DNA of 64,000 nucleotides from Microbispora sp. H13382. GTDB taxonomy: Bacteria > Actinomycetota > Actinomycetes > Streptosporangiales > Streptosporangiaceae. The translations under genes and the position numbers were made by a program. Under the pieces are notes generated by a model. The model was given only the letters and a program-made list of their open reading frames with translations, searched no databases and had not been told where the DNA came from. Positions within the stretch are counted from its first letter, which is position 1. Every line of letters starts with the position of its first letter. The stretch covers positions 372,001-436,000 of the forward strand of contig NZ_JABBXA010000005.1 in NCBI RefSeq assembly GCF_014161445.1. The letters run 5' to 3'. Positions 19,568 through 24,176 of the stretch are shown piece by piece.

Positions 19568-20257
19568 ATGGCAACCCCGCAGCAACGCCGTGTCCTCGTC
19601 GTCGAGGACGACGACACCATCGCCAACGCCGTACGGCTCCGGCTCGTGGCGGAGGGCTTCGACGTCCGCGTCGTGAGCGACGGCGAGGCGGCGCTCGCGG
19701 CCTACGCGAAGGCGGAGCCCGACGTCGTCGTCCTCGACCGGCTGCTGCCGGGCCTGGACGGGCTCGAGGTGTGCCGCAGGATGCAGGCGGCCCGGCCGGT
19801 TCCGGTGCTCATGCTCACCGCGCTCGGCGAGGAGACCGATGTGCTGGTCGGGCTGGGCGTGGGCGCCGACGACTACATCACGAAGCCGTTCAGCATGCGG
19901 GAGCTCGTCGCGAGGATCCACGCGCTGCTGCGGCGGGTGGAGCGGGCGAGCCTGCTGGCCCACGAGGACACGGTGATCAGGATCGGCGACGTCGAGATCA
20001 ACACGGCCGAGCGCCGCGTGTTCGTCCGGGGGACCGAGGCCCAGCTCACCCGGACCGAGTTCGACCTGCTGCGGCGTCTCGCCGAGCGGCCCGGCCACGT
20101 ATTCGAGCGCGAGCGGCTGCTGTCGGACATCTGGGGCTTCTCCGAGGCCGCCGCGACCCGGACCGTGGACAGTCACGTCCGCGCGCTGCGCCGCAAGCTC
20201 GGCCCGGAGGTCGTCCGTACCGTCCATGGCGTTGGATACGCGCTCGTCCGTCCGTGA
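19568..20257 (+). CDS. OmpR/PhoB-family response regulator
   Basis: 229 residues: a receiver domain with phosphoacceptor Asp57 (VVVLDRLLPGLDG), acidic EDDD at 13-16 and Lys in ITKPFSMRELVARI, then a winged-helix DNA-binding domain (LTRTEFDLLRRLAERPGHVFERERLL ... VDSHVRALRRKLG). It is followed at 28 bp by its kinase, the DUF4173 fusion protein, and probably regulates it. Confidence 0.93.
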   Translation: MATPQQRRVLVVEDDDTIANAVRLRLVAEGFDVRVVSDGEAALAAYAKAEPDVVVLDRLLPGLDGLEVCRRMQAARPVPVLMLTALGEETDVLVGLGVGADDYITKPFSMRELVARIHALLRRVERASLLAHEDTVIRIGDVEINTAERRVFVRGTEAQLTRTEFDLLRRLAERPGHVFERERLLSDIWGFSEAAATRTVDSHVRALRRKLGPEVVRTVHGVGYALVRP

Positions 20258-20285: not shown

Positions 20286-23200
20286 ATGAGGCCGCTCGAC
20301 TTCCTCGGCCGGATCAAGGTCAAGCTCGGCATCGTGATCGTGCTCGCCGTGGTCGCGGCGTTCGTCGTCAACGAGGTCGGCATCAACTCCGGCCTGTCCA
20401 GGGATCTCAGGATCGCGATCGCCGTCGTGCTCGCGCTGATCATGGTGCAGCTCCTCGCCCGCGGCATGATCCGGCCGCTGCGCGAGATGGCCGCCGCCGC
20501 GCAGACGATCGCCAAGGGCCGGTACGGCCTGCGCGTGACGGCGACGTCCCGCGACGAGGTGGGGGAGCTGGCACGGGCGTTCAACGCCATGGCGGCCGAC
20601 CTCGCCGAGGTCGACCGGCAACGGCGCGAGCTGGTGGCCAACGTCAGCCACGAGCTGCGCACGCCCATCACCGGCCTGCAGGCCGTGCTGGAGAACGTCG
20701 TGGACGGCGTCACGCCGCCCGACCTCGACACCCTGGGCACGGCCCTCGCCCAGACGCAGCGGCTCGGCCGCCTGGTGGCCCAGCTCCTCGACCTGTCGCG
20801 GCTCGACTCGGGGGCGCGGCTGATCGAGCCGGAGGAGCTGGACCTGGCGTCACTGTGCCGCCAGGCCGTCTCGGAGGCGGCTCTCGCGCGCGACGACGTG
20901 ACGGTGGTGAGCGCCGTCCCGCCGGGGACGGCGCTGTCGGCCGACGCGGCCCTGCTCGCCCAGGTGCTGGCCAACCTGCTCGACAACGCCGTACGGCACA
21001 GCCCGTCCGGCGGCACGGTCCGGGTGGAGGCGCGGGCCGCCGGGCCGAATCTGGAGATCGGCGTCACCGACGAGGGCCCCGGCATCCCGCCGGCGGAGCG
21101 GGCCCGGGTGTTCGAGCGCTTCTCGCGCCTCGACGCCGGGCGGGCCGCCGACGCAGGCGGGGCCGGGCTCGGGCTGGCCATCGCCAAGGAGATCGTCGAG
21201 CTGCACGGCGGGTCGATCTCGGTGGCGGACCCGCTCCCGGTCGCGAGACGGCCCGCGGGGAGAGGCCGGGGGACGGCCCCGGGGTGCCGGATGGTCGTGG
21301 CGCTGCCGCGTCAGGGGGAGCCGGCGGCGGGGGAGAGCGTGGACGGACCCGTCCACGTCGGCGAACGAAGGGGGAACATGGAAATCGAGGCGGGCGGAGG
21401 TCACACCGTCGGACGACACGACGGGGACGTCGTCGGTTCACCCGCAGCCGCCGGGATCGGCCCGGCCCGGGCCGGCGCCACCGCGGCCGGAGGGTCATCC
21501 GGAAGCGAAGACGCGGACGGTCACCCCCACGAAGCAACCCGTGGTGGCCGGGCGCGAGCCGAGGAGGACGAGCGCCCCGAGGCCGGCCACACGGAGAGCC
21601 CGGAGCCTCTCCGGGCCGCCGGCGTCTCTTCGCCGCCCGGACGCGCCGAAGCCGGTCACCTCGGCGCAGGGGAGCACCGCCCCTCCGGCGACGGCACGGG
21701 TGACGGGGACGCCCTCGGCACGCGGGGCGAGGACGCGTGGCCGTCCTCGCCCGTGACCGCCGACGGTGATGGGCGATCCGGGGAGCGGCAGGTGGAGAGC
21801 TTCGAGCCCTCCCGCGAGGCCCCGGCTCCGCCTCGGCGGACCGGGACCGCGGAGACCGGTCACGATCGGGCGGGGGACCTCGGCATCTCACCGGACGGCA
21901 TCGCCGGCAGCGACGGCGGCGAGGACCGGGAGGATCCCCGGCGGCAGGGACTCGTCCGCGCCCGGGCGGACCAGCCGTACCCGGTTCCACCGGCCGGAGG
22001 CGCCGGCGTGCCGGGACAGGTGTTCGCACCGCGGGCCGGGGTGCCCTACGACCCTGCCGGGCACGTGGCGCGGGCGGCTCTCGGGGCGGGCGTCGGCATG
22101 TTCGCGGGATTCCTCGCCGGGCTGATCGCCCCGGTCTTCCTCGGCGTGGGGAGCCTGGGCATCGTCTCTTTGGCGCTGTTCACCGCCGTCGGGGCGATCG
22201 TGGGAGCGGCGCGCGGCTCGTCGACGGCCCGGCGGGCCGCGGCGACGGCCGCGAGCGCGCCCCCGCCGCCGTGGTACACCACCCGGCCCACGCCCGCGAC
22301 AGGCACCGTGTCCGGTTCCGCCGTGCCGGCGTCCGGTTCCCCCGAGGGGGCATCCGTGCCGGTGGCGGTCACCATGAGCACCGAACCCGGTTCGCGTCCG
22401 GGGCCACCGGGATCGTCCGTTCCCACCATGGCCGCGGCCGTCCACAGCGTGAGCGTCTCGCCGCCTCCGGTTCCCGCCACGCCGGGGGGCACTCCTCCGG
22501 AGAACCCGGCGGGCCCGCGTGTCCAGGGGCACGCGCAGCCGCGGCAGGTCTCCCCGGAGGCGTCCATGCCGTCCATGCCGTCCATGCCGTCCATGCCGTT
22601 CACGCCGTCCACGCCGTCCATGCCGCCGGTGCCCCCCGTGCCCGGCGCGCACGCGCCGGGGCGGTATCCCCCGCCGCCCGCCTACGTGCCGCCGCCGCTG
22701 TTCCCGAGGCCGGACCTGCCGGAGGCCCCCCGCTGGCTGCTGCCGGCCGCCGCCGCGGCGGGCCTGGTCGCCGCCGTGACCCTGCCGTACACGTCGGCGG
22801 GGCTGGGCCTCGTGCTGACGGCGGTCGCGTTGGGGGCGGCGGCGTTCCCCGCGGTGCTGCCGCTCCGCCGCGGCCGGGTCACCCCGTGGACCCTGGCCTT
22901 CGGCCTCCTGGCGTACGCGCTGGTCTCCGTGGCGCTCTTCCGCGACGCCGAATGGCTGGTCGGGCCGGTGCTGCTGGCCGCGTTCGGAGTGGGATCCCTC
23001 GCGCTGTCGGGCGGTGGCCGGGGCTGGCTCGCCGTGATCAGGGGAGGGATCTCGGTGGCGCTCGCGGCGCTGCCGACGCCGTGGTTCCTGGCCGGGCCGA
23101 TCCGTACCCTGGCGCGGCGGCGGCGGATGCTGCCCACGCTGGTCAGCGCCGCCGTGACCGTCGTGCTGCTGGCCGTCTTCGGCCTGCTGTTCTCCTCCGC

Positions 23201-24176
23201 CGACGCCGTCTTCTCGGCCTTCCTCAGCGACCTGCTGCGGACGCCGGAATGGGCACAGAGCCTGCCGTACCGGGTCTTCGTGTTCTGCGTGTTCGCGGTG
23301 CTGGCCGCGGCGGCGGTGCTGGTGGGCCTGCGCCCGGTGGCCGAGCCCGCCGCGCCCGACCTGCGGATGTCCCTCGGGCGCCAGGTGTGGGTGATCCCGC
23401 TGGCCGGGCTGAACCTGCTGTTCGCGGCGTTCGTGACCGTGCAGATCACGGTGCTGTTCGGCGGAAGCCGCAGGGTGCTGTCGACGGCGGGGCTCACCTA
23501 CGCGGAGTACGCGAGGTCGGGCTTCTTCGAACTCGTCACGGTCAGTCTCTTCGTGCTCGGCGTCGTGGCCGCCGCGGTCGCCCTGCTGCGCCTGCGCGGC
23601 CGGGCCGACCGCTGGGTGCTCGCCGTGCTGCTCGGCCTGCTGTGCGCGTTCACGCTGGTCATCCTCGCCTCGGCGCTGCATCGCATCGGCCTCTACACCG
23701 ACGCGTACGGCCTGTCGCGGCTGCGGGCCTCGGTGGTGGCGACGATCTGGTGGCTCGGCGCGGTGTTCGTGCTGGTGCTCGCGGCTGGGGCGGTGCGGCT
23801 GTTCGGCGGCGGCACGTCCTGGTTCTTCCGGGGGCTCGTGCTGCTCACCGGGGTGTCGCTGCTGGCGTTCGCGGTCTGGGACCCCGACGCGCGGGTGGCC
23901 GAGACCCAGCTCACGATCCGGGGTGTCGAGCGGCTCGACCACGGCTACCTGGGCGATCTGGGGGCGGAGGCCGTGCCGATCCTGGACCGCCTGCCCGAAC
24001 CGGACCGCAGCTGCGTGCTGAGCGACGTGGTCGCGGTCAACGGCCTCCGCGAGCCGGACCCCTGGAACGGCTGGAACCTCGCCCGCGCCCGCGCCCGTGA
24101 GGTGCTGGAGCGCAGGCCCGTCGTGCGGCCCGACGACTGCCCCGCTTCGTCGCGTGTGCCCGGACCGTACGACTGA
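20286..24176 (+). CDS. Giant histidine kinase fused to a DUF4173-like membrane domain
   Basis: A single 1,296-residue frame without a stop. Residues 1-340 are a complete kinase: two N-terminal transmembrane helices, HAMP (about 60-110), phospho-His122 (VANVSHELRTP), N-box LANLLDNAVRHSP, and G-boxes VTDEGPGIPP and AGLGLAIAKEIVELHGG. Residues ~345-595 are a Gly/Glu/Pro-rich disordered linker. A hydrophobic pair follows at about 598-645, then a second Pro-rich linker with MPS repeats. Residues ~815-1200 hold about ten transmembrane helices plus a soluble tail resembling DUF4153/DUF4173 proteins. Elsewhere these are normally separate adjacent genes. An internal in-frame start at 21378 may give the second half as its own protein. 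The ATG at 20286 is chosen over one inside the regulator gene. Confidence 0.85.
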   Translation: MRPLDFLGRIKVKLGIVIVLAVVAAFVVNEVGINSGLSRDLRIAIAVVLALIMVQLLARGMIRPLREMAAAAQTIAKGRYGLRVTATSRDEVGELARAFNAMAADLAEVDRQRRELVANVSHELRTPITGLQAVLENVVDGVTPPDLDTLGTALAQTQRLGRLVAQLLDLSRLDSGARLIEPEELDLASLCRQAVSEAALARDDVTVVSAVPPGTALSADAALLAQVLANLLDNAVRHSPSGGTVRVEARAAGPNLEIGVTDEGPGIPPAERARVFERFSRLDAGRAADAGGAGLGLAIAKEIVELHGGSISVADPLPVARRPAGRGRGTAPGCRMVVALPRQGEPAAGESVDGPVHVGERRGNMEIEAGGGHTVGRHDGDVVGSPAAAGIGPARAGATAAGGSSGSEDADGHPHEATRGGRARAEEDERPEAGHTESPEPLRAAGVSSPPGRAEAGHLGAGEHRPSGDGTGDGDALGTRGEDAWPSSPVTADGDGRSGERQVESFEPSREAPAPPRRTGTAETGHDRAGDLGISPDGIAGSDGGEDREDPRRQGLVRARADQPYPVPPAGGAGVPGQVFAPRAGVPYDPAGHVARAALGAGVGMFAGFLAGLIAPVFLGVGSLGIVSLALFTAVGAIVGAARGSSTARRAAATAASAPPPPWYTTRPTPATGTVSGSAVPASGSPEGASVPVAVTMSTEPGSRPGPPGSSVPTMAAAVHSVSVSPPPVPATPGGTPPENPAGPRVQGHAQPRQVSPEASMPSMPSMPSMPFTPSTPSMPPVPPVPGAHAPGRYPPPPAYVPPPLFPRPDLPEAPRWLLPAAAAAGLVAAVTLPYTSAGLGLVLTAVALGAAAFPAVLPLRRGRVTPWTLAFGLLAYALVSVALFRDAEWLVGPVLLAAFGVGSLALSGGGRGWLAVIRGGISVALAALPTPWFLAGPIRTLARRRRMLPTLVSAAVTVVLLAVFGLLFSSADAVFSAFLSDLLRTPEWAQSLPYRVFVFCVFAVLAAAAVLVGLRPVAEPAAPDLRMSLGRQVWVIPLAGLNLLFAAFVTVQITVLFGGSRRVLSTAGLTYAEYARSGFFELVTVSLFVLGVVAAAVALLRLRGRADRWVLAVLLGLLCAFTLVILASALHRIGLYTDAYGLSRLRASVVATIWWLGAVFVLVLAAGAVRLFGGGTSWFFRGLVLLTGVSLLAFAVWDPDARVAETQLTIRGVERLDHGYLGDLGAEAVPILDRLPEPDRSCVLSDVVAVNGLREPDPWNGWNLARARAREVLERRPVVRPDDCPASSRVPGPYD
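21368..21380 (+). promoter_or_regulatory. Internal ribosome-binding site and in-frame ATG inside the kinase fusion gene
   Basis: AAGGGGG is followed three bases later by ATG (21378-21380), in frame with the long gene and at the point where the kinase domain ends (...GERRGN-MEIEAGGG). It could start separate translation of the linker plus DUF4173 part. Confidence 0.5.
22562..22628. repeat. 9-bp coding repeat in the second linker
   Basis: GTCCATGCC repeated four times exactly and then degenerately, encoding MPSMPSMPSMPFTPSTPSMP within the kinase/DUF4173 linker. Such a repeat can change length by slippage without shifting frame. Confidence 0.9.

Follow-up and report, generated by a model that had tools for sequence, protein, structure and literature searches.

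A sensor histidine kinase fused to a DUF4153 membrane domain in Microbispora, with a conserved internal start predicted to yield the membrane part alone

The DNA analysed here, hereafter the window, is a stretch of 64,000 nucleotides from Microbispora sp. H13382, and this study concerns one open reading frame (ORF) on its + strand, 20286..24176, which joins a sensor histidine kinase (HK), a long linker and a DUF4153 membrane domain in a single chain. Comparison with the corresponding sequences of related genomes confirms that this fusion is a true and conserved joining of kinase and membrane protein. Behind the kinase, a Shine-Dalgarno (SD) sequence and a start codon lie in the same frame, and their conservation among fused relatives points to separate production of the membrane part as well. 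We consider it fairly probable that a kinase with almost no external loop is tethered to a DUF4153 membrane partner, and that the internal start supplies additional, free DUF4153.

Results

The frame at 20286..24176 translates to 1296 amino acids without an inner stop, as a first-pass annotation of this DNA had proposed for a single kinase-membrane protein, and its N-terminus, RPLDFLGRI, is kept in fused relatives. Pfam profiles place HAMP at residues 56-106, HisKA at 112-176, HATPase_c at 220-342 and DUF4153 at 875-1236. The same annotation had called the kinase complete from H122 to the G2 box, and we find the phospho-histidine at H122, the N box at 230, the G2 box at 294 and a final kinase strand that ends at P341; the protein carries the HAMP domain, phospho-histidine, N box and G box of a HisKA sensor kinase. 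The catalytic core, HisKA with HATPase_c, is encoded at 20619..21311 (+). Ahead of it, 20286..20603 (+) encodes two transmembrane (TM) segments and HAMP but no extracytoplasmic sensor domain. By hydropathy only, the TM segments fall near residues 10-28 and 43-61, separated by some 14 residues of loop. Hydropathy and Pfam together give the kinase an intramembrane-sensing form, with two TM segments, a very short outside loop and no other sensor domain.

A scan of named genomes, from which the best 80 of 278 stretches were kept, gave 79 loci, and in this set the nearest named relatives of the window fusion are Microbispora species. Kinase and DUF4153 share one open frame in 51 of the 55 named loci closest to the window (L024-L078), and the other four (L025, L040, L049 and L057) reach a contig edge before the kinase. 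We looked for the pattern in which close relatives all have two separate genes and found that all 51 loci whose DNA reaches the kinase have a single frame, although at L031 the DNA covers only the last residues of the kinase. The DUF4153 frame is also free of stops in 15 of 15 genus genomes searched, the window's own included. We rejected a sequencing or assembly error that merged two genes, an explanation with practically no chance of being correct, because separately sequenced genomes of many genera share the open frame; nothing was seen in its favour.

The kinase is preceded by an OmpR-family response regulator (RR) with a receiver and a winged helix, encoded at 19568..20257 (+) and recognised by profile matches and by the presence of a same-strand RR upstream of the HK in related loci. 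Its ORF is open from 19505, with ATG 19568 as the likely start, and its top NCBIfam score is to MtrA but under the cut-off of that model. To follow the module more widely, 394 genomes of the class were surveyed; a DUF4153 match is present in 87, of which 6 belong to the window's genus. From the 81 others, 73 loci were fetched (L134-L206), and the remaining 8, with matches that were partial, broken or below threshold, were omitted. The fetched loci comprise 29 fused ones, 17 with an adjacent HK (including the frameshifted L154) and 27 at which an HK was not found in the stretch; no kinase was found at 13/13 loci of genus g35 and 8/8 of genus g2. A phylum sample of 296 genomes gave 62 with a match, from which 20 loci, all outside the class, were chosen for fetching. 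The order RR-HK-DUF4153 is present in 9 of these 20 loci, always as split genes. Two of these nine, L218 and L222, resemble the named loci L084 and L079, and L226, among the others, has only 582 nt of upstream DNA. In the more distant named relatives (L080-L102, 26-38% identity), a kinase was seen only at L084 and L088, and some of the others have short upstream DNA. Where the genes are split, HK and DUF4153 overlap by 4 nt (ATGA or GTGA) in 14 of 19 loci, mostly with an SD-like stretch ahead of the start, and the remaining five have a gap of about 70-120 nt. One study finds an enrichment of complex subunits among genes with such start-stop overlaps (PMC10666635).

In a quick tree of 98 kinase plus DUF4153 rows, the split label requires three changes, or four with L154 counted as split. 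The window's clade consists of 58 rows, all fused, and a second fused place is found in a 24-row clade (families f26, f30, f33 and f9) with 20 fused rows, 3 split rows and the frameshifted L154; the deep joins of this tree are unsure because several long branches meet. Although change counts alone give no direction, the outer classes are all split, which suggests that fusion is the derived state. At L154 (G238), a shift of frame within the linker separates the kinase from DUF4153, whereas its close relatives L156, L158 and L162 are fused; this may reflect an error, a broken fusion or a return to separation. L068 (Actinopolymorpha alba, not of the Streptosporangiaceae), one of the 51 fused named loci, nests in the window's clade, where its linker is the shortest, either through transfer or as a misplaced sequence.

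The internal SD and in-frame ATG of the window lie at 21366..21380 (+). The ATG at 21378-21380 (Met365) is preceded by CGAAGGGGGAAC with an anti-SD dG of -11.0, and its predicted product has 932 amino acids; an in-frame GTG at 21339..21341 (+) is a weaker candidate, with an anti-SD dG of -8.6. The first-pass annotation had recognised the in-frame SD and ATG correctly but placed them exactly at the kinase end, from which the ATG is in fact about 23 codons away, counted from the last strand. For a wider analysis of such starts, 78 fused loci were used after 9 duplicate genomes were dropped. A strict rule, asking for an in-frame ATG with an anti-SD energy of -7 or lower within 40 codons of the kinase end, finds a start in 41 of the 78 loci, compared with 50/1358 windows in the HK and DUF4153 parts, 26/493 in the rest of the linker and 2/156 in the other two frames (1-5%). 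When GTG is also allowed, the count becomes 57/78, compared with 320/1358, 110/493 and 10/156 in the respective controls. In 27 loci, none of them of the window's genus, the ATG stands at +3 to +5 codons from the kinase end. The SD of these loci uses rare codons, with AGG encoding 23 of 25 Arg, GGA 12 of 16 Gly and GAA 11 of 12 Glu, against same-gene backgrounds of 10.8%, 10.5% and 18.4%, respectively. Synonymous resampling, applied to the first ATG within 40 codons regardless of SD (47/78 loci), gave a median p of 0.085, while the 1017 control ATGs inside the genes gave 0.535 (Mann-Whitney 5e-20, kinship ignored; Fisher on 16 genus medians, 1.9e-4). A looser rule, picked after viewing the data (ATG at -6.5 or lower, or GTG at -8 or lower, within 59 codons), finds a start in 61 of the 78 loci and none in 17. 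At these 61 starts the mRNA is on average less structured than at 87% of same-gene control sites (98% for the window), an effect to be read with the lower GC content of start sites (67% vs 74%) and not seen in Planotetraspora and Microtetraspora.

A conserved internal SD with a start, the mark of an SctQ-type gene, is present in many of the fused loci and is weaker in the second fused group. Such conservation predicts a membrane-only product beside the fusion, and it supports the separate membrane protein that had been raised as a possibility on first inspection. In Microbispora the internal start follows the kinase end by 21-36 codons, in Herbidospora by 24-52. In six loci of the latter genus (L052, L053, L055, L060, L062 and L063), a conserved GATACGGAGGCCGGT stands before a GTG (five loci) or an ATG (L062) 24-52 codons past the kinase; judged by these sequences, the internal start has apparently shifted its position without being lost. 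Release of the kinase alone by a frameshift onto an old ATGA stop was also considered and is not favoured, because the base that follows this start varies among the 61 loci (G 24, A 23, C 10 and T 4).

The linker at 21381..22736 (+) is rich in Pro, Ala, Gly, Ser and Thr (44-68% of residues across the 78 loci) and evolves fast. Its dN/dS is 0.69 for the closest pair, the window and L207, and 0.13-0.90 across 14 chosen pairs, vs 0.08-0.30 for the kinase. From the kinase end to the DUF4153 profile, its length in the window's clade ranges from 88 residues (L068) to 623 (L210), and in the second fused group it is 96-120 residues. Of a hydrophobic hairpin reported earlier in this linker, one segment (613-631) is above the hydropathy cut-off in the window. 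An extra hydrophobic segment is frequent in relatives but not general, and 15 loci of the same clade have none outside the TM segments adjacent to DUF4153. Nearly all of the linker is downstream of the internal start and would therefore be part of the DUF4153 product as much as of the fusion. Within it, a 9-nt tandem repeat of 7.2 copies at 22561-22625 encodes PSM units.

The membrane domain, encoded together with a helical C-terminal tail at 22737..24173 (+), matches PF13687 (DUF4153) with E=4e-76 and 257 bits against a cut-off of 27, over profile positions 2-373 of 373. It had been described as DUF4153- or DUF4173-like; the former name is correct, whereas the DUF4173 profile found no match in the window protein at E<=0.1 and that identity was rejected. 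The two families may nevertheless be related, because a Tsukamurella protein annotated as DUF4173 aligns with 36% identity over 44% of the query. Both had been placed in the Cache clan in Pfam 27; a Cache relation was discarded here, since the Cache study found them unrelated (PMC4822843). The window genome has one DUF4153 match; among control genomes, those of E. coli and Caulobacter are matched by the profile as well. Other classes of the phylum mostly have DUF4153 in an open frame of its own, of about 450-600 amino acids, whereas here the full-length match lies inside a kinase gene. The predicted fold of the window domain has a mean pLDDT of 89.9 and a pTM of 0.87. In the PDB, Foldseek with this domain found nothing at E<=0.001 (its best match has E 0.5), and a profile search of the PDB sequences yielded two unconvincing hits (E 0.31 and 0.69); a PHROGs search gave no match at E<=0.01. 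With the full fusion, Foldseek gave kinase structures among the 50 matches listed. The AlphaFold model of the fusion has a pTM of 0.60 and was not used for any claim of contact between kinase and DUF4153. Residues invariant across 50 aligned sequences include D973, Q1053, Y1075, R1077, Y1137 and R1147 (window numbering). In the literature searched, DUF4153 together with histidine kinase turned up only the Cache study, and DUF4153 alone turned up that study and a plant marker paper.

Discussion

Intramembrane-sensing kinases have two TM helices, a tiny outside loop and no sensor domain, and their partner is encoded nearby. BceS with BceAB provides a structural example of a kinase taking its signal from a membrane partner (PMC10314905). 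Like BceS-BceAB and LiaS-LiaF, the window locus combines a two-TM, loop-poor kinase with a partner encoded nearby, here by genomic association only. Unlike those systems, the partner is DUF4153 rather than an ABC transporter or LiaF, and it is fused to the C-terminus of the kinase. Joining of a kinase to a many-helix membrane module in one chain is seen in CbrA, where the module is N-terminal. The same order is found in AmsS, with a polytopic module ahead of the kinase (PMC10112286). The window protein resembles both in having kinase and many-helix module in one chain but differs in order, since the kinase with its own TM segments comes first, followed by the linker and a C-terminal DUF4153. 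The predicted second product finds its parallel in SctQ/HrcQ, a single gene from which an internal start also yields the C-terminal part, as shown experimentally (PMC8553256). In contrast to the window locus, however, SctQ/HrcQ is a secretion-apparatus protein and not a signalling protein, and its second product was demonstrated by experiment.

The locus may be regarded as a two-component module that carries its own membrane partner. With its two TM segments, hardly any external loop and no domain for sensing, the kinase most likely receives its signal within the membrane from DUF4153, and by analogy with the systems above a sensory role for DUF4153 appears reasonable. In other lineages, the partner would be the product of the separate gene directly behind the kinase, mostly with the 4-nt overlap. 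In the fusion the kinase stop codon is absent, and therefore each kinase chain would end in DUF4153, while the start resembling that of a separate gene (SD and ATG, 21378) is retained and most likely also yields free DUF4153 of 932 amino acids. Signalling would then run from DUF4153 to the kinase: a change in its conformation or occupancy would alter the TM bundle and HAMP of the kinase, and through them H122 phosphorylation and the response regulator. Fusion would place one DUF4153 at each kinase, and the internal start would add free copies in a ratio that we can only infer. We further suggest, tentatively, that one frame provides tethered and free partner by design, that both enter a mixed complex whose ratio sets kinase output, and that this state was reached separately in two actinobacterial groups.

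Several observations weigh against the proposal of tethered plus free DUF4153. At least 17 of the 78 fused loci have no good internal start, so the fusion alone must suffice somewhere. The looser rule also passes in 225/938 windows of the HK and DUF4153 parts, 85/290 linker windows (24-29%) and 11/156 other-frame windows (7%), so some of the 61 starts are due to chance; one of them, L029 (M. sp. H11081), is counted through a GTG, its codon aligned with 21378 being CTG. The synonymous signal is weak at the window's own site (p=0.115; genus median 0.099) and lacking in the majority of groups of the second fused set (medians 0.61 in g55, 0.61 in g58, 0.50 in g98 and 0.21 in g43; a fifth group with an ATG has 0.13). 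The pooled p-values overstate the case, because cut-offs were chosen post hoc and the loci are related. Two of these points favour the idea that only the fusion is made, a single 1296-aa protein in which the purine-rich stretch is a translational pause for kinase folding before membrane insertion and the ATG is an ordinary Met; loci that stay fused with no good internal start, and a window site that is not significant, are what it expects. We consider it rather unlikely, since the combination of SD and ATG, in the right frame and with the spacing of a start, is far more frequent than in controls and falls in weakly structured mRNA, and a pause site would require neither an ATG nor open mRNA.

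Lineages that are fused but have no good internal start, in which the fusion must work, argue against a neutral loss of the stop, by which two independently started genes would come to share a frame and the fused chain would be tolerated without a role. Retention of the SD and start in many fused loci and the fast-evolving linker would suit such an account, yet all 58 rows of the window's clade are fused though the stretch from kinase to start varies in length, and we regard it as improbable. DUF4153 could also be the output instead of the sensor, namely a transporter or membrane enzyme under kinase control, which is compatible with two products and which we treat as a possibility of the lesser kind. 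The invariant polar and aromatic residues listed above lie inside the membrane domain and could form an active or transport site, and the absence of a kinase near DUF4153 in 27/73 class loci also speaks for an output rather than a sensory role. Against this, no other sensor domain is present in the kinase, and a complex would suit both the invariable order, HK before DUF4153, and the close coupling of the two. Sensor and output roles are also compatible, as Bce modules combine transporter and sensor (PMC10314905).

DUF4153 is an orphan membrane family that is spread well beyond the window's group and has no significant match, by sequence or fold, among solved structures. Because one kinase lineage is fused to it or keeps a conserved gene order with it, the family gains a signalling role that can be tested. 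The loci form a natural series, split with overlap, fused with an internal start and fused without one, which would be well suited to asking what tethering of a sensor partner does and how gene pairs fuse while keeping a second product.

Additional observations

In genus g35, DUF4153 has an internal TGA at L142 (G086) and lies in two pieces at G372:C1:2405672-2406363. Ten flanking frames of two loci lacking an HK, L136 and L182, gave no functional clue. At L232 and G657:C20:283590-293017, DUF4153 is present twice on the same strand, with some 8 kb between the copies and a score of 227 bits for each, and the opposite strand has a second kinase and regulator. An acetyltransferase and an amidohydrolase that lie nearby in the window are found near 27/97 and 26/97 related loci, respectively, and so accompany only part of the relatives.

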